From Bacteriovoracaceae bacterium (lineage in GTDB: Bacteria; Bdellovibrionota; Bacteriovoracia; Bacteriovoracales; Bacteriovoracaceae): DNA of 35,154 bases. Of the stretch, positions 18,707 through 35,154 are shown one piece after another. A model generated the notes under the pieces. It was not told the origin of the DNA, did not search any database, and worked only from the letters and a program-made list of their open reading frames with translations. Numbering within the stretch: the first letter of the stretch is position 1; every line of letters begins with the position of its first letter. The stretch lies in assembly GCA_023151145.1 (NCBI GenBank), contig JAKLJM010000001.1, positions 1 to 35,154 on the forward strand, given 5' to 3'. The translations under genes were made by a program, and so were the position numbers.

Positions 18707-18840
18707 AATTAATACTCGACTGCCACTAATAATGAGCAATCGTAATAGTTGATTATTTTAGACAAATTTACTAAGTACCTGAATACCCATAGCTGATAAG
18801 GATTTCTAAATTTTTGCTCAAATTTCACGATAATAGAGAT

Positions 18841-21800
18841 ATGAAGACGATAAAACTTAATACTTTTAGGCATTCTCTTTTCCTCTTAACCTTTTTGGTG
18901 GCTTCGGCATGTATGCCGGATAGTTTGACTAAACTCAAACAAGACCCTCCAAAAAAGGATCCACCTCCAGTGATAAAACCTGGTGTTGTCGTTGGTGACG
19001 ATGGATCTGAAGTTTTAGTGGAAGAGATTATTCCAACGACTAAATTCTATTATGGATCAGAGGGCAGTACCTATGAAGGTATTTATGTCATCAATGAAGA
19101 ATTTCCAACTTTAAATCCATTCATTGATGGAACATTAAGTGATGAGACTTTAGGAAAAACATTATTCGTAAGATGTGAAGTTATAACTTCTAATGATGGT
19201 TTAAATCGTTTCCCATCAGGAATTACTTTTATAGATGGTGACTCTAAGTATTCTACTAAGAGTTGTGGAATAAATATTAAACCTACCAATACTGCAAGCT
19301 ATAACAATGTTGCAGGAAAAGCCTATGAGCCAGTTACTTATACTGTTCGTATGACTTTTAGAAATGCTGCTAGCCAACTAGTGACATTAGATAATCAAGT
19401 TAAGATGGCCGTTCTTAGACGTCCAACAGCTCTCACTGTATCACAAACTGAAAAATTAGTTTTGGACCTTACTGGGATTAACGACTTTGCTCGTTTTGAT
19501 TTGAATCCAAAAATTGCTTCTAATAAAAATGCCGTCGCAACAATCCGTTTTAAAGATGCTTCGAATAAAAAATTAATTGTTTCAAGAGATAACAACACTC
19601 AAGTGAGCATTAATGACAATATCGATAATGCGAATATTTTTTATAACACTGAAGCGACTATTTCTAATATTTTAAATGTTGTAGTCGTTAATGAAAAACT
19701 AGAAACGACTTATGCTTCTTATCCAGCGTCATGTCCAACAGCACCAGGACCTACATCTAAGTTGTATATTAAAAACCCAACTCCAGATGTCCTAGCTTCA
19801 AACATGATTACTTATTCAATTAGTCCAGACTTACCGGCGACAGCAAAACTTTGTAACTATTCTGATACTCTAACCATAGACACTGATGCTGTAACACCAG
19901 GGAATCAATATGATCCTTGTTATTGCCGTCAACCAGGTGAAGTTGTTGGTTACTTTGATGCTGTTACAAACCAGACGGACTATGTGGTAAGAGCCTTTAA
20001 TCCAATTGCAACTGAACCAAATTTTACTGAATCTACTTTTAGATTAGTTGTTTCTGAATCCCCAGAAGGATTCAACGTAGCTCAAAGACAATTACTAAGA
20101 GTAACAAATAGAGTAGATTTCGAAATGGGTGAAGCCATTTCAGAACAAGTTGTACCTCCTCTAAGTGCTGAAACTGCAGCTAAGGGTCGAGTGCTTGAAG
20201 CTTTTTCTTACGACGCTGATGCTGACGGTAATGATGAAGAATATCTCGATGTAGAATTATTAAGAGGTCGTTTTAGAAAAGACTCAAGTATCGATAATGC
20301 TCGTTTTTTCTACGCCCAAAATACTATCGTGCTTGATAACCCTTTTGATTACAACGTAGCTCTTAAAGTTAATGATGCAGCTAACTTCTCGACCAATCAA
20401 TATATAACTGGTTTTTTACACAACTCAAGTCGACTACGTGGAACTTGGACTCAAGGAGGAGGATTTTCTCCAAATGAAGCCTGTACAAGTGCCGGAACTG
20501 ATATTGGTAAATATTGGGAAGTAAAAGCAGATGGAACATATGCTGGTGTTGCAGTAAAAGTAAAAGATCGCCTTGTATGTAATGGTGAAACCATTATTAG
20601 AGAACCATTCAACTCATTTACAAAAGGTGTCTTGAAGTTTGTGAATGAAACTACTGATAAAGTTTATATTGCTTCGTCGTATGAAAACTATAGTGACTAC
20701 CGCCACCCAAATGTGACGACTCCTTTCGAGCAGTATCAAACAATCTATGAAGGTTTAGGATTAGGTTCCTGGAACCCTTCGATGAGTTATTATTTAGGGG
20801 CTTGGGATGCAACGACATTACCAACAGCTGCGACATGTACTGCTAGTAAAATTAGAAATTATTATGTCGTGAGTGTTCCTGGAAACGGATACTCGATTGG
20901 TGATCGAATTATGTGTACCACAATTGGTGGAGCATGGACGAAAAAAACTATGTCTGATATTACCGACTCTCCTGACGCTCAGGTAAGCTGTTCGCCTTCT
21001 GATAAGTTTTATAAAGTTTCAAAAGCTGTTTCAAGTGGTGGAACAATTGCGACAACAGGTCAACTTGCGGCCCTACCATCTTGTGACGAAACAATCCATG
21101 GACAACATAGAAGAATTACAACTGGTATGACTACAACCCTTAACGGCGAAACAAAAACTTTTGCGGTTAATGATTTAGTTATGTGTACATTTGAAAATTA
21201 CTGGAAACATATTCCAGCAACTCACCCTCTGCATTCGTTTGTTGTTACTCAATCAAGTAACACATTAGCTGTTGGTGATATTGCGTATTGTGACTCTACT
21301 GATTTACAGTGGAAAAAAATTGCCAGTGCGTCTTCTCCTTATCAACATACGTACTCAACCGAAGTTCATTCAAAATCTCAAGTTATTAAGATGGCTTCTG
21401 CTTATAATACATACTATGGACGTGATTTAACTTCAACAGCGGCTTCTGCTTATATTGTTCATACAAGTAAAACCGATGGTTCAATTAGTGACACGAGTTA
21501 TTTAAGAGTAAAAGATGTAAAAGGCTTTTTCACCGTTACCGGTGATGCCATTGCTCATAATGAATATCGCAACCAAAACGATGCTTCATATGCAGCGGCG
21601 GGTGTTGTTTACCCAACAGATTTCTTAAGCTCTGTGACGGCCATTGATCGCGTTTTTGATGACAACACATTCTACTTAGAGCGCGGAGAATTTACTATTC
21701 TTTATCCGACAACCATTCGCGGTGGAGAAGTTATTTATTCCATCTCACCGGCTCTTCCTCAAGGTCTAACGTTTAACGTGAATACCGGAGAAATTTCTGG

Positions 21801-23358
21801 TACACCAACTATTGCTTCAGCTATTCGCGAGTATACTGTTACTATCCAAAATGCGATTAGTTCTATTACTTATAAGTTTAAGTTAGAAGTTGTAGATTAT
21901 TTTAAAGTGACTGAAGTAAATCCGAATATTTTTACCGCTTATATGCATAAGACTGGTCAAAATCAACATTTCAGAGAATGTAAAATCAACGCTCGTGATA
22001 TCAACTCTCCGAACTCTACAGTAGGTGGTGTTAAAGACATCACTCCACTTGATGTTACTTGTAATCTTGAAATAGGTGAAAATGACTTAACTCTTTATGG
22101 ATTAAAATTTGCCCATTCAGTTGGTGGTGGTGTTTGTAACTTTGTCAGTTACCAACCAATGGCTTACTGGTCATACCGTCCATTTAATACCTCAAATGCT
22201 ACGACAAACGTTCTTAATAGAATTACAGTCAAAATGGCCGGTGAATGTAATCCAGGTGCCTATACGGTTCCAGGAACAAATATCGATGCTGGTACTTTAA
22301 TTGGTACTGAAGCACTTCCTTCAAATGAAATTTGTCATGCCGATTACTCCGACATCACTGGTGGATACAATTGTGATGAGGGTGAATATGATGAAATTAC
22401 AGTTGAATACTTAGATGCTGATGGTTCAGTCACAAACGAAGCCTGTACGACAATCGTTAATAACGTAAAAAGAAAATGTGGCGGTCAAAATGCAAGCTGT
22501 ATGCGTGGACCAATCCGTGACTTACTTGACGATACGGCCATTGCTGATAAGTCTACTGGTAAATTCTTTACCGCTTCAAATGGTATCGACAACAAAGGTG
22601 AACCATACGAAGTAAAAGCGTTAACCAGAGATATTACGAATGCTAACTTTATCCTCGATAACTCATGTACGGTGAACAACTATATTTACCAAAATGGTCG
22701 TTGGGGGAAAACATTTGACCCAAGTACAACTGGAGCACTACCTCGTAACTACGGTCGTGCGGCAGCAAACGCAGCTCCAAGAATTTTAAGTTTTCCAGGT
22801 GCTTCAGTTGGAGTTGCTCCATCCACAGTTGTTAACGCTGAAGCAACATGTGACTCAGTGGCAGAAATTGGAACTGTCATTTCAGTGGATACAGGGTTAG
22901 TTGGTACAAACGATGATGATATTTATCTTTGTGTGACTGATACTACGAATCTTCCAACAGGTGCATTGGGCTTTAAATATATCAATGCTGGAAAACGCTG
23001 GGATGTTGTTAACTATATTGGTCCAAATTCTGGATTCTGGTCATGGAACAATAGTGGCTTCAACCAATCTAACCCTTATTATGTTTTCCAATGTGAAGAC
23101 TCAGCACGAGAAATTAAAGCAAGAATCCGTGTGGCCGTAAGAGATTGGGACTTAGAAATCACTCCAAGAGATATTGGTGGTGGCGTCTATCCGTTAAGAT
23201 TAATAGATAGAGTTAATCCTCCAAATAATGTTATGGATAACCCAAATACTGGTGAGTTTGGAACAAATTTAAATAACTATTACGACTTAGATGATATTAT
23301 CAGTGCACCATCTGCAGCATGTGGCCGTAATGATCCTGTTCCACTACTTAACGATTAA
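18841..23358 (+). CDS. Very large lipoprotein with Ig-like and repeated Cys-framed modules
   Basis: No known gene. I start at ATG 18841 rather than the track's TTG 18814, because this puts a lipoprotein signal (MKTIKLNTFRHSLFLLTFL, lipobox VASAC, Cys24) at the N-terminus; 1505 residues. A proline/lysine linker (QDPPKKDPPPVIKP) follows, then beta-rich sequence. Residues about 540-830 hold several modules of the form 'C...Y.V...G....vGD...C....W.K' (NYYVVSVPGNGYSIGDRIMC; SFVVTQSSNTLAVGDIAYC), and a further one lies near 1335-1390. Residues about 945-1022 form a putative Ig domain of the He_PIG type (LPQGLTFNVNTGEISGTPT). Many cysteines suggest disulfides and surface exposure. It could be an adhesin or a prey-contact structure, but that is guesswork. 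Its stop abuts that of rimO. Confidence 0.8.
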   Translation: MKTIKLNTFRHSLFLLTFLVASACMPDSLTKLKQDPPKKDPPPVIKPGVVVGDDGSEVLVEEIIPTTKFYYGSEGSTYEGIYVINEEFPTLNPFIDGTLSDETLGKTLFVRCEVITSNDGLNRFPSGITFIDGDSKYSTKSCGINIKPTNTASYNNVAGKAYEPVTYTVRMTFRNAASQLVTLDNQVKMAVLRRPTALTVSQTEKLVLDLTGINDFARFDLNPKIASNKNAVATIRFKDASNKKLIVSRDNNTQVSINDNIDNANIFYNTEATISNILNVVVVNEKLETTYASYPASCPTAPGPTSKLYIKNPTPDVLASNMITYSISPDLPATAKLCNYSDTLTIDTDAVTPGNQYDPCYCRQPGEVVGYFDAVTNQTDYVVRAFNPIATEPNFTESTFRLVVSESPEGFNVAQRQLLRVTNRVDFEMGEAISEQVVPPLSAETAAKGRVLEAFSYDADADGNDEEYLDVELLRGRFRKDSSIDNARFFYAQNTIVLDNPFDYNVALKVNDAANFSTNQYITGFLHNSSRLRGTWTQGGGFSPNEACTSAGTDIGKYWEVKADGTYAGVAVKVKDRLVCNGETIIREPFNSFTKGVLKFVNETTDKVYIASSYENYSDYRHPNVTTPFEQYQTIYEGLGLGSWNPSMSYYLGAWDATTLPTAATCTASKIRNYYVVSVPGNGYSIGDRIMCTTIGGAWTKKTMSDITDSPDAQVSCSPSDKFYKVSKAVSSGGTIATTGQLAALPSCDETIHGQHRRITTGMTTTLNGETKTFAVNDLVMCTFENYWKHIPATHPLHSFVVTQSSNTLAVGDIAYCDSTDLQWKKIASASSPYQHTYSTEVHSKSQVIKMASAYNTYYGRDLTSTAASAYIVHTSKTDGSISDTSYLRVKDVKGFFTVTGDAIAHNEYRNQNDASYAAAGVVYPTDFLSSVTAIDRVFDDNTFYLERGEFTILYPTTIRGGEVIYSISPALPQGLTFNVNTGEISGTPTIASAIREYTVTIQNAISSITYKFKLEVVDYFKVTEVNPNIFTAYMHKTGQNQHFRECKINARDINSPNSTVGGVKDITPLDVTCNLEIGENDLTLYGLKFAHSVGGGVCNFVSYQPMAYWSYRPFNTSNATTNVLNRITVKMAGECNPGAYTVPGTNIDAGTLIGTEALPSNEICHADYSDITGGYNCDEGEYDEITVEYLDADGSVTNEACTTIVNNVKRKCGGQNASCMRGPIRDLLDDTAIADKSTGKFFTASNGIDNKGEPYEVKALTRDITNANFILDNSCTVNNYIYQNGRWGKTFDPSTTGALPRNYGRAAANAAPRILSFPGASVGVAPSTVVNAEATCDSVAEIGTVISVDTGLVGTNDDDIYLCVTDTTNLPTGALGFKYINAGKRWDVVNYIGPNSGFWSWNNSGFNQSNPYYVFQCEDSAREIKARIRVAVRDWDLEITPRDIGGGVYPLRLIDRVNPPNNVMDNPNTGEFGTNLNNYYDLDDIISAPSAACGRNDPVPLLND

Positions 23359-31531: not shown

Positions 31532-32896
31532 TCATTTTAAAAGGGTCAAATCCAGATGAGTCGTGCGCCCTTTTTTTACAGGTATTTGCACTCTCTTTTC
31601 TCTATAGCCAGGTAGGGTTATGCGCATTTCAACCAAGCCTTCTTGAGAGTCGACTTGTTTAATAAATCCAGTATGATAGAGACGATATTCACCATTGGAA
31701 TCCCAACGGCGCACACGTTTATACAACTCTCCCGGCTTTCCAATTTTCGTAGTGGCCAAGAGTGGTTTTAATTTAATTTTTAATTTCTTTTGTTCATTCT
31801 CACTTAGTAACTTTCCCTTAAAGCGCAGGCGCAAATCAAAAGCAAAAGAAGTGAAGTCTGTTCTTGGCTCTTTACTTTTTCGCAGCCCAAATAAAGTTTC
31901 GACGACGGGAACGAGTGCTGGATGTGGACAATAGGTGTACTTGTAACCAAGGCACTTTTGTGGAAAATAAGCAATGCCATGGACCTTTACGCTTTCTTTG
32001 ATGATGGCCGTGTGAAATGCACTCACTGGATAAAAATTATCTTCTCTGGTAAAAGCTGTTTCAAAAAAATCTTCTGGATAAATCATTGCTTTATTTTTAT
32101 GGTCAGCATTTTCAACGTAATAGGAAAAATCTAATTGTGTCGAAGGAAGAGGGACCGCTGTATCGTCTTCAAATTGATTTTTCCCAGTGACAAATGGTCG
32201 CAACCATTTCAGAGCTTCTGGCATACCAGCCACATGAACAAAATGAATTTGTTCTTGGAGCTTTGCCATAAGGACTTGGGCATAAGGCTCTAGCAAAAGA
32301 GCTCTAAGTTCATCAACGGCGGGACTTGTTACTTGTAAATCATCTAATTGTGTATTTCCAAAAAAGTTCAAAATATCTAGTCCCAACATTCTTGCTAATG
32401 CTTTTACTTTTGAGCCAGCAATAGCAATTTTTGATCCCCAAAACGGAGTTCCAAGTGTGACCATCGAAAAATAATTATTTAAATATTCAGGATGATAACG
32501 AACGTCTTGCATGGCTGATCGTAGAAGCATTCTAGTAGCAATTAAGCCACCTTGCGAGTGAACCACAAATGAAATTTTATCTTCATTTCTAATCCCTCCA
32601 TTTGCACGTATTTTCTCATCAACAAAGCTTGATAAAAGCAGCGCAATTTTATTAACATCGATTTGATTATCACCAGTATTATATTTAAATTTTTCAACGA
32701 CTAATGTTTCATTAATATTTAAATAACTTTTTTGATCTTCTAAAATTTCTTTTAAGCTTCCAAAGTTTTCAGGTTTACCGGCTATACCATGAACTAAAAA
32801 TATAAAATGTTTGTGCTCACGAGCTGCAAAGCTAGTCTCAAACGTAACAACAAAAATGAATAAGATGAAATAAAGATATTTCAACTTATTTTCCAA
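31532..32896 (-). CDS. Secreted lipase-like alpha/beta hydrolase
   Basis: A 454-residue secreted alpha/beta hydrolase, similar in layout to PGAP1/LCAT/GPI-deacylase-like lipases. Signal peptide at the N-terminus (ILFIFVVTFETSFA), then FIFLVHGIAG (oxyanion region), the nucleophile elbow VVHSQGG with Ser114, and TLGTPFWGSK, typical of this lipase group. An aspartate-bearing EDDTAVPLPS is the likely acid. The last 60 residues look like a small beta-sandwich (VEMRITLPGYREKRVQIPV). The track start is TTG 32896, which overlaps the L,D-transpeptidase stop by 11 bases. TTG 32884, right after that stop, gives a shorter signal peptide (MKYLYFILFIF) and is equally possible. Acts outside the inner membrane; substrate unknown. 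Confidence 0.78.
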   Translation of the reverse strand: MENKLKYLYFILFIFVVTFETSFAAREHKHFIFLVHGIAGKPENFGSLKEILEDQKSYLNINETLVVEKFKYNTGDNQIDVNKIALLLSSFVDEKIRANGGIRNEDKISFVVHSQGGLIATRMLLRSAMQDVRYHPEYLNNYFSMVTLGTPFWGSKIAIAGSKVKALARMLGLDILNFFGNTQLDDLQVTSPAVDELRALLLEPYAQVLMAKLQEQIHFVHVAGMPEALKWLRPFVTGKNQFEDDTAVPLPSTQLDFSYYVENADHKNKAMIYPEDFFETAFTREDNFYPVSAFHTAIIKESVKVHGIAYFPQKCLGYKYTYCPHPALVPVVETLFGLRKSKEPRTDFTSFAFDLRLRFKGKLLSENEQKKLKIKLKPLLATTKIGKPGELYKRVRRWDSNGEYRLYHTGFIKQVDSQEGLVEMRITLPGYREKRVQIPVKKGRTTHLDLTLLK

Positions 32897-33611
32897 GTCC
32901 TGCTAAAATTAATACGCCATCTTTCACTCGATCAATATAAGATTTAGAAAGCTTAGGATCTACCGCTAAGCATCCCCAACTTCTTCCCACTTTTTTTCCA
33001 TTGTCCTCTACATAGTCTGCGGGATGAATCACTATCGCTCTCTCGCGAACTTTTGAGTTACTCGTAGATAAACCATCTAATCTCAAAGAATAGCCAAACT
33101 TTCCATAGTAGGACTCAGCTGTTAAATAAAATCCTAGTGATGATTGTTTAGAATCAACTGTGTTTGAAAAATCTGTCGCATATCCATCATTATTTCTGTC
33201 TGAATTTTTTCCATGGGTCACTAACATTGGAAAAACTTCTCCGCTACGCATATCGATAACGAACTGACGTTTTTTTGAACTATGCGCTTTAAAATCCACC
33301 ACAATCAAAGTGTCTTTATTGGGGATTTTATCAAAATTTGTTTCGTAGTATTGAAGAGCTTCTTGTTTTAAATTTAGCGGTATCAAATTTTTTGGATCAA
33401 CATAGTCATATTTAGATAAATCTAATGACTGTAAGGAGTAATCATTAATTTGATGAGTTGATGTAAGTTCAATCGCAGCCTCACTTGGAGTCAACGCATT
33501 TGGATCAAAATCGTGATAACTTTTTTCTGTCAGTTCGTTGGCAAAGACTGTTATTGATAATAAGGCTAAAGGAAGAATGGCCCATGATTTTAATGAAATA
33601 ATTTTTTGCAT
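32886..33611 (-). CDS. Secreted L,D-transpeptidase-like protein (YkuD_2 type)
   Basis: The murein L,D-transpeptidase catalytic-domain family (YkuD_2), acting on peptidoglycan stem peptides or attached proteins in the periplasm. Signal peptide (AILPLALLSITVFA) then about 215 residues. The catalytic core shows VIDMRSGEVF, THGKNSD with H133, SSLGFYLTAE, and the active-site block H196 (IVIHPADYV) to S211-W-G-C214 (GRSWGCLAVDP), the family S-x-G-C motif. 241 residues, normal length. ATG at 33611 follows AGGA by eight bases; a hairpin lies just upstream. It overlaps the lipase gene, so the two are probably made together. In predatory Bdellovibrio, L,D-transpeptidases remodel the prey wall; a similar role here is inference. 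Confidence 0.85.
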   Translation of the reverse strand: MQKIISLKSWAILPLALLSITVFANELTEKSYHDFDPNALTPSEAAIELTSTHQINDYSLQSLDLSKYDYVDPKNLIPLNLKQEALQYYETNFDKIPNKDTLIVVDFKAHSSKKRQFVIDMRSGEVFPMLVTHGKNSDRNNDGYATDFSNTVDSKQSSLGFYLTAESYYGKFGYSLRLDGLSTSNSKVRERAIVIHPADYVEDNGKKVGRSWGCLAVDPKLSKSYIDRVKDGVLILAGLGK

Positions 33612-33667: not shown

Positions 33668-35154
33668 TTACTGATTTTGCTCTCTATAGAGCATAATCAC
33701 TCTTAAAAGTTCATTTGAAGTGTCATGTAGGGTCTTTAGATTAATTTTTTCAACTACATGTATACCAATAAGCGCAGCATTTGCTTGCACAATAATTTCA
33801 TTTGATATCTGATGAAAACGGTTGTGTATTTTGCTTAATTCAACCAAGTGTTCATTGTTAAAATCTCTTGTATCTTCTAGTAACCACCGACCAAGCATAC
33901 ATTGGCTGGAAGCATCGTCTGATGCTTTCAGCGTTCCATCAGGGGAATTGCTATAGGCGATGATTTTTTCCTTAAATTTTAAATGAATCATAACTACATC
34001 ATCGAAATCCAATCTTGTGTTTAACTTAATCACAAAAGTCGTATTCTTAGTATTTTGCTCGAGATATAATTTTCCTCGGTGCGCTTGAATGATACCGAAT
34101 GAAATACTAAGCCCCATCCCGGTTCCTTCACCTTGTTTCTTTGTGGTGAAGAAGGGATCCATCATATTCTTAGCAATGTCAGCATCAATACCCATTCCAC
34201 TATCAATGATTTTAATTTTCACTACTCCATCTGTTTTGATAGCATCAAGCTTAACCCATTTATGGTCGTTATCTTTAATAGCATCAATTGCATTGGAAAT
34301 AAGATTGACTACGACTTGAACAATTTGAACTTCATTAACAATGATAATTATTTTTTCAAACTGTTTACGATCATAGAGAACAGATATTTCATTATGTTTT
34401 ATTTTTGCACCAAGAAGATCTAAACTTTCATCTATGATTTTTGATAAATGAACATTGGCCCTTTCTTCTCTATTACTATCACGTGAAAATAATTTTATTC
34501 CACGAATGATCTTGTCGATGCGAGCAGCGTTGTTAAGAATTTTTAAAAGTTTATCATTCAACTTTGTTCGATCTAAAGTTTCGTCATGATTTAAATCCGT
34601 TAACAATCTTTGAGTTGTACCGGTAATGGCAAATAAGGGATTATTAATTTCATGAGCAATTCCAGAAGTTAACTCTCCAATAGATGCTAACTTTGCACTT
34701 TGTAAGGACATCTCTCTGCGTTCTGCGAGCTCTCGTTGTTTTTTTAAAAAAGCTACATACGCAACAAAGCCCAAAATAATACTTAAAAGAATAATTGATG
34801 ATTCAATGATGATATTTTTAAACCACCACTGTAATATTTCATCTTTTGAGAATGAAACAAAAACGAACATATCAGAGAGGTTCATTTTTTCTACAGTATA
34901 AAGTTTTTTAATATTATCTAGTGGTGAAACCAGTTCACTGGTTAAGCGGGTTTCATTTGAAGCAATGAAATTTAAAAACTTATTGGTCAACAGGACTTGT
35001 TTGCCAATTAATTTTTCATCATACGGGTGAACAAAATACACTTTGTCACGTCCTCCCATGAGGACAACCTTTCCACTTTTTTCTAAAATTAATTCATGGA
35101 ATTTTTCTTTTAATTTCTCTAACTCTAGGGTGGCAATAAGTACGCCATTGAACT
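33668..35154 (-). CDS. Sensor histidine kinase with C-terminal CZB zinc domain (partial)
   Basis: The frame stays open from the track's M (35059) to the right edge, reading ...FNGVLIATLELEKLKEKFHE before it, so the true start is outside the window. Seen parts, in track numbering: the end of a Cache-like periplasmic sensor (VYFVHPYDEKLIGK), a transmembrane helix (about 83-104), HisKA with H136 (SGIAHEINNPL), and HATPase_c with N-box NLISNAIDAIK and the G-box strings DSGMGI and GTGMGLSIS. After the catalytic core comes a roughly 107-residue CZB-like domain: H359 (HLKFK), C387 (CMLGRWL), and H412/H416 (HNRFH). CZB domains bind zinc with three His and one Cys and sense zinc or hypochlorous acid in chemoreceptors and DgcZ. 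No response regulator is adjacent. Confidence 0.88.
   Translation of the reverse strand, partial: FNGVLIATLELEKLKEKFHELILEKSGKVVLMGGRDKVYFVHPYDEKLIGKQVLLTNKFLNFIASNETRLTSELVSPLDNIKKLYTVEKMNLSDMFVFVSFSKDEILQWWFKNIIIESSIILLSIILGFVAYVAFLKKQRELAERREMSLQSAKLASIGELTSGIAHEINNPLFAITGTTQRLLTDLNHDETLDRTKLNDKLLKILNNAARIDKIIRGIKLFSRDSNREERANVHLSKIIDESLDLLGAKIKHNEISVLYDRKQFEKIIIIVNEVQIVQVVVNLISNAIDAIKDNDHKWVKLDAIKTDGVVKIKIIDSGMGIDADIAKNMMDPFFTTKKQGEGTGMGLSISFGIIQAHRGKLYLEQNTKNTTFVIKLNTRLDFDDVVMIHLKFKEKIIAYSNSPDGTLKASDDASSQCMLGRWLLEDTRDFNNEHLVELSKIHNRFHQISNEIIVQANAALIGIHVVEKINLKTLHDTSNELLRVIMLYREQNQ

Follow-up and report, generated by a model that had tools for sequence, protein, structure and literature searches.

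The minus-strand reading frame at the end of the window (the entire 35,154-nucleotide stretch that we analysed) encodes a histidine kinase whose N-terminus is cut off by the contig end. It comprises half of a dCache domain, a transmembrane helix, HisKA and HATPase_c domains, and a chemoreceptor zinc-binding (CZB) domain. The combination of a kinase with a C-terminal CZB domain is real and rare, and it suggests that cytoplasmic zinc or oxidants may tune this kinase from its tail end.

A histidine kinase that ends in a CZB domain

The window is the whole of contig C463 of its draft genome (493 contigs totalling 2.96 Mb; completeness 84%, contamination 4%) and the frame runs off the end of it, so the N-terminus of the kinase is missing. 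From the stop codon at 33668-33670, the reading is open up to the contig end at 35152. The 463-residue protein of the initial annotation starts at an internal ATG of this 494-residue frame. The missing dCache portion had no match elsewhere in the assembly, and the contig-end sequence is shared with no other contig. The features of the frame are:

33668..35152, minus strand: histidine kinase frame, 494 codons visible, 5' end lost at the contig end
34829..35152, minus strand: C-terminal half of a periplasmic dCache domain (about residues 1-108, partial PF02743 match)
34745..34813, minus strand: predicted transmembrane helix (about residues 114-136), read from the sequence, with a charged stretch after it
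34478..34678, minus strand: HisKA dimerisation/phosphoacceptor domain (residues 159-225; PF00512, 33.4 bits, above the cut-off)
34019..34333, minus strand: HATPase_c catalytic domain (residues 274-378; PF02518, 74.5 bits, above the cut-off)
33791..33985, minus strand: CZB domain (residues 390-454; PF13682)
33983..33985, minus strand: predicted zinc ligand H390 (from the CZB alignment, in the register of 3t9o, as for the next three)
33899..33901, minus strand: predicted zinc ligand C418, in CMLGRWL
33824..33826, minus strand: predicted zinc ligand H443
33812..33814, minus strand: predicted zinc ligand H447
33671..33790, minus strand: C-terminal tail (residues 455-494), which can be aligned to the ends of other CZB proteins from the phylum

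The proposed order of Cache, transmembrane helix, HisKA, HATPase_c and CZB holds, with curated Pfam matches for HisKA, HATPase_c and CZB in this one frame, and the frame is uninterrupted from HisKA to the end of the tail. The phosphoacceptor H167 of HisKA sits in GIAHEINNP, the nucleotide-binding motifs of HATPase_c are present in the kinase alignment, and the protein qualifies as a HisKA-type kinase. The HATPase_c and CZB matches are separated by 11 residues. One hydrophobic stretch lies between dCache and HisKA, and Pfam found no HAMP domain. A separate periplasmic Cache input had also been proposed, and this holds in part: the C-terminal half of a dCache domain is visible, but the rest is off the contig and the match of this half to PF02743 is below the cut-off (20.4 bits versus 45). 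Full-length dCache kinases (L051-L055) align to the whole visible front of the kinase, and the nearest full-length relatives match dCache_1 above the cut-off (47.7 and 49.7 bits).

Searching the C-terminus with PF13682 found the CZB domain that the initial annotation had proposed (31.4 bits versus a curated cut-off of 29.4; E = 2.5e-7; 64 of 64 profile positions). In a genome-wide search with the same model it scored 35.2 bits. Against a profile of 76 non-kinase CZB domains from the phylum, which was built without any kinase CZB, the tail scored 48 bits; the best decoys reached 7.7 bits (1272 reversed reading frames) and 7.5 bits (6000 shuffled tails). A profile of an alignment of six CZB domains matches the structure of the CZB domain of E. 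coli DgcZ (3t9o; E = 4.5e-5), with the ligands in register.

The H...CxLGxW...HxxxH pattern behind HATPase_c was recognised correctly: all four zinc-ligand positions of a CZB domain (three histidines and one cysteine) are filled, by H390, C418, H443 and H447 (H359, C387, H412 and H416 in the numbering of the initial annotation). All six aligned domains have these ligands and the C-x-L-G-x-W motif without variation. CMLGRWL has bulky residues at positions 3, 6, and 7 and glycine at position 4, which matches the published description (PMC8262984). The CZB domain of the window kinase is on a long branch of a CZB-domain tree that has too few columns. An AF2 model from the single kinase sequence had a mean pLDDT of 31 and was of no use for pairing or geometry.

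Kinases with CZB domains within and beyond the phylum

PF13682 matched proteins in 64 of 369 genomes from the window's phylum, and was above the cut-off in 59 of them. Chemoreceptors and short CZB-only proteins predominated among the frames that we examined, together with a small number of CheW-like proteins that carry CZB. The phylum has many free-standing CZB proteins, roughly 115-135 residues long. A survey for HisKA-HATPase-CZB architectures, as the initial annotation had suggested, yielded five further kinases with C-terminal CZB among some 370 of the phylum's genomes, two of them with all ligands. These two, L078 (from genome G153; CZB at 47.2 bits) and L109 (G360; 35.2 bits), are PAS-HisKA-HATPase_c-CZB proteins from other families of the phylum than the window kinase. 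Because the same C-terminal fusion occurs in two other genomes with every ligand intact, an assembly accident is unlikely. Among 13 other sampled genomes of the genus, none has the same architecture or a zinc-intact CZB on a kinase.

The other three kinases were reached with A1, a profile of the HATPase_c tail plus CZB that was run over 358 genomes of the phylum. They have the CZB tail without the full ligand set: L050 (2551-4338; G002), L174 (4996-6711; G039) and L176 (3603-5363; G011). L050 keeps the first histidine and has lost the cysteine and both later histidines; L174 likewise keeps the first histidine and has lost the cysteine and the HxxxH pair; L176 keeps the cysteine and has lost all three histidines. 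Against the non-kinase CZB profile these tails scored 33, 22, and 17 bits, respectively, above every decoy, and when the three were pooled into a profile and compared with CZB, the probability was 96.5%. The expected conservation of the ligands in orthologues is borne out in part: the four ligands are present in only three of the six kinases with C-terminal CZB (the window kinase, L078 and L109), and the nearest dCache kinases of the genus stop at HATPase_c and so offer no tail for comparison.

We also note some other CZB proteins. A kinase from G122 (L091:3033-6098) has the reverse order, with an N-terminal CZB (CZB-PAS-GAF-HisKA-HATPase_c). Three proteins of about 300-330 residues (L105:1863-2855, L110:1347-2243 and L111:1831-2823) each have two tandem CZB matches, and a pattern check gave no chemoreceptor or kinase signature for them. 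The second CZB match in the window's own genome (L001:1375-2829, on G000:C272) belongs to a chemoreceptor-like protein that carries CZB at its C-terminus.

Outside the phylum, A1 had no match spanning both domains in 399, 331, 149, and 190 genomes around four centres in other phyla (1069 in total), at a threshold of E = 1e-20 that may miss divergent cases and in samples with no known carrier genome; the same search did find cases within the window's own phylum. The CZB tail retrieved no relative from genome contigs. A DNA pattern (G2 box plus Cxx G xWI) matched 16 stretches across 84,980 species, and in frame none of these was a fusion. This says little, because all three known intact cases would escape the pattern (by GVG in L078, WL in the window kinase, and an overlong gap in L109). 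In viral contigs, matches were confined to the kinase part of the query, and plasmids gave three CZB matches, none in a gene annotated as a kinase.

A census of 10,140 CZB proteins sorted them into seven architecture classes with no histidine kinase among them: soluble or membrane chemoreceptor, DGC, DGC-EAL, EAL-CZB, CheW-CZB, and CZB only (PMC8262984). The window kinase fits none of these, as Pfam finds no such partner domain in it. In a full-text literature search of partial coverage, no title or visible abstract described a fusion of CZB to a histidine kinase. As far as we can see, the architecture is rare and undescribed; a prior listing, for instance among the InterPro or Pfam architectures, is possible.

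A proposed role for the tail, and alternatives

We consider it probable that this is a membrane kinase with two inputs, an external one through dCache and a zinc- or oxidant-responsive one through a C-terminal CZB clamp. The periplasmic dCache domain would read an external ligand and signal through the transmembrane helix, as expected of its relatives. The CZB tail would be a cytoplasmic module that responds to zinc or oxidants. Two CZB domains may pair across the kinase dimer and hold both ATP-binding domains in a fixed position; given the short link of 11 residues to HATPase_c, such pairs would limit how far the mobile ATPase domains can move. If zinc were lost or C418 oxidised, these domains would be released and the autokinase or phosphatase activity would change. 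For a regulatory domain in this position, behind the ATPase domain, CheA offers a precedent.

That zinc or oxidation acts on the window kinase is plausible by analogy with TlpD and DgcZ. The 3His/1Cys site of CZB binds zinc very tightly, and the first helix region makes up most of the CZB homodimer interface; in DgcZ the CZB homodimer is symmetric. In DgcZ and TlpD, the zinc-bound domain is ordered and the zinc-free domain is loosened, and oxidation of the cysteine by HOCl releases the zinc; DgcZ is inhibited by zinc (PMC8262984, PMC6715182). We infer the zinc occupancy, the CZB pairing and the partner protein, and the zinc effect on the kinase could be in either direction.

For the partner, a REC-HD regulator is a reasonable guess. 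L109 is preceded by a REC-HD regulator whose stop overlaps the possible start of the kinase (ATGA), and which itself comes after a PAS kinase. Two of the dCache relatives, L051 and L055, adjoin similar regulators of 351 and 356 residues, and that of L055 matched REC-HD. The guess for the window kinase is drawn from these neighbours. No response regulator is adjacent to the window kinase on its visible side, and the upstream side is off the contig. The genes downstream are:

32886..33611, minus strand: L,D-transpeptidase (YkuD_2), the next downstream gene, 56 bases past the kinase stop
31532..32896, minus strand: DUF676-type esterase gene, overlapping the end of the transpeptidase gene

A crude scan found no terminator-like site in the stretch that it covered. 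In G013, a CZB frame that is cut by the contig start is followed by a gene similar to L,D-transpeptidases (L016:2-968); this resembles the order in the window and may be due to chance. Elsewhere in the window, at 18814-23358, is a frame of 1514 residues whose sole Pfam match is a putative Ig domain (He_PIG).

The tail might instead serve chiefly for dimerisation or docking, with zinc, where it is bound, being structural, and with dCache (or PAS in the relatives) as the sole signal. The main argument for this comes from L050, L174, and L176, which retain a full-length CZB-derived tail but lack the ligand set, and which group in a single clade of the kinase-core tree (support 97/88) that spans two families of the phylum. 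Because half of the kinases with C-terminal CZB lost ligands, the tail may be retained for purposes besides zinc. However, the window kinase, L078, and L109 keep exactly the four ligands amid divergence: the CZB domains of L078 and L109 are just 20% and 15% identical to the window's, and all four ligands are nonetheless kept. We regard a tail that serves chiefly for dimerisation or docking as rather unlikely. The ligand-less branch could also have a clamp that dispenses with zinc. In a wider form of our preferred reading, these proteins would make up a kinase class, so far found only in this phylum, in which a C-terminal zinc/redox switch clamps the ATPase domains and works alongside an ordinary N-terminal sensor, and one branch of which lost the zinc site but kept the clamp. 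We put this broader idea forward tentatively, as a possibility short of an expectation.

Another explanation is that a free-standing CZB gene was recently joined to a dCache kinase in one lineage and is a neutral passenger. Free-standing CZB proteins are common, as described above, and the nearest relatives of the window kinase (L051-L055, from the same genus, with 35-38% identity across the visible dCache half, transmembrane helix, HisKA, and HATPase_c) stop 39-51 residues past the G2 box and have no CZB, while the window kinase runs on for about 150 residues past that box. But the four ligands and the motif are preserved despite the long branch, and the same fusion is found in two other families. 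The kinase-core tree does not resolve the three ligand-intact kinases, and a constraint that groups them, as a single origin would, was not rejected (AU test, p = 0.87). A recent passenger seems improbable. A single old fusion with losses and several fusions would both fit the kinase-core tree. Least probable, in our view, is that the tail links the kinase to chemosensory machinery and is not a sensor for its own kinase. CZB is mostly a chemoreceptor domain (PMC8262984), and the ligand-less L174 has genes for an MCP, CheR-REC, CheB-REC, and a REC-Trans_reg_C regulator upstream (L174:2-4992, in G039). However, the window frames that we searched contain no recognisable chemotaxis gene, and L109 adjoins a REC-HD regulator.

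Comparison to known systems

In most sensor kinases the drive comes from the N-terminal side, via the DHp helices; a zinc/redox module attached to the mobile ATPase domain would add a second and separate route of control over the kinase. If our preferred reading of a two-input kinase is true, the reach of CZB signalling would go beyond chemotaxis and c-di-GMP and take in two-component phosphotransfer. Kinases with an intact tail, a ligand-less tail and no tail form a natural set, which makes the clamp idea directly testable.

Close counterparts include the PAS-HisKA-HATPase_c-CZB kinases L078 and L109, which also have a four-ligand CZB behind HATPase_c, but with PAS in place of dCache and with the domain matches further apart (linkers of 17 and 29 residues). 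TlpD-like soluble chemoreceptors, such as TlpD of Helicobacter pylori, share the C-terminal CZB with the same 3His/1Cys site. Their output is an MCP coiled coil that acts on CheA in trans, whereas the window kinase has its CZB fused to its own ATPase domain. In DgcZ (YdeH), whose CZB structure is the one that our profile matched, CZB is likewise fused to the catalytic domain of a dimeric enzyme, but it stands at the N-terminus, and the catalytic partner is a GGDEF domain. CheA has a regulatory domain, P5, that is C-terminal to its ATPase domain; P5 is CheW-like and does not bind zinc, and the phosphorylation target of CheA is a separate Hpt domain, not a DHp histidine, which sets it apart from the window kinase.
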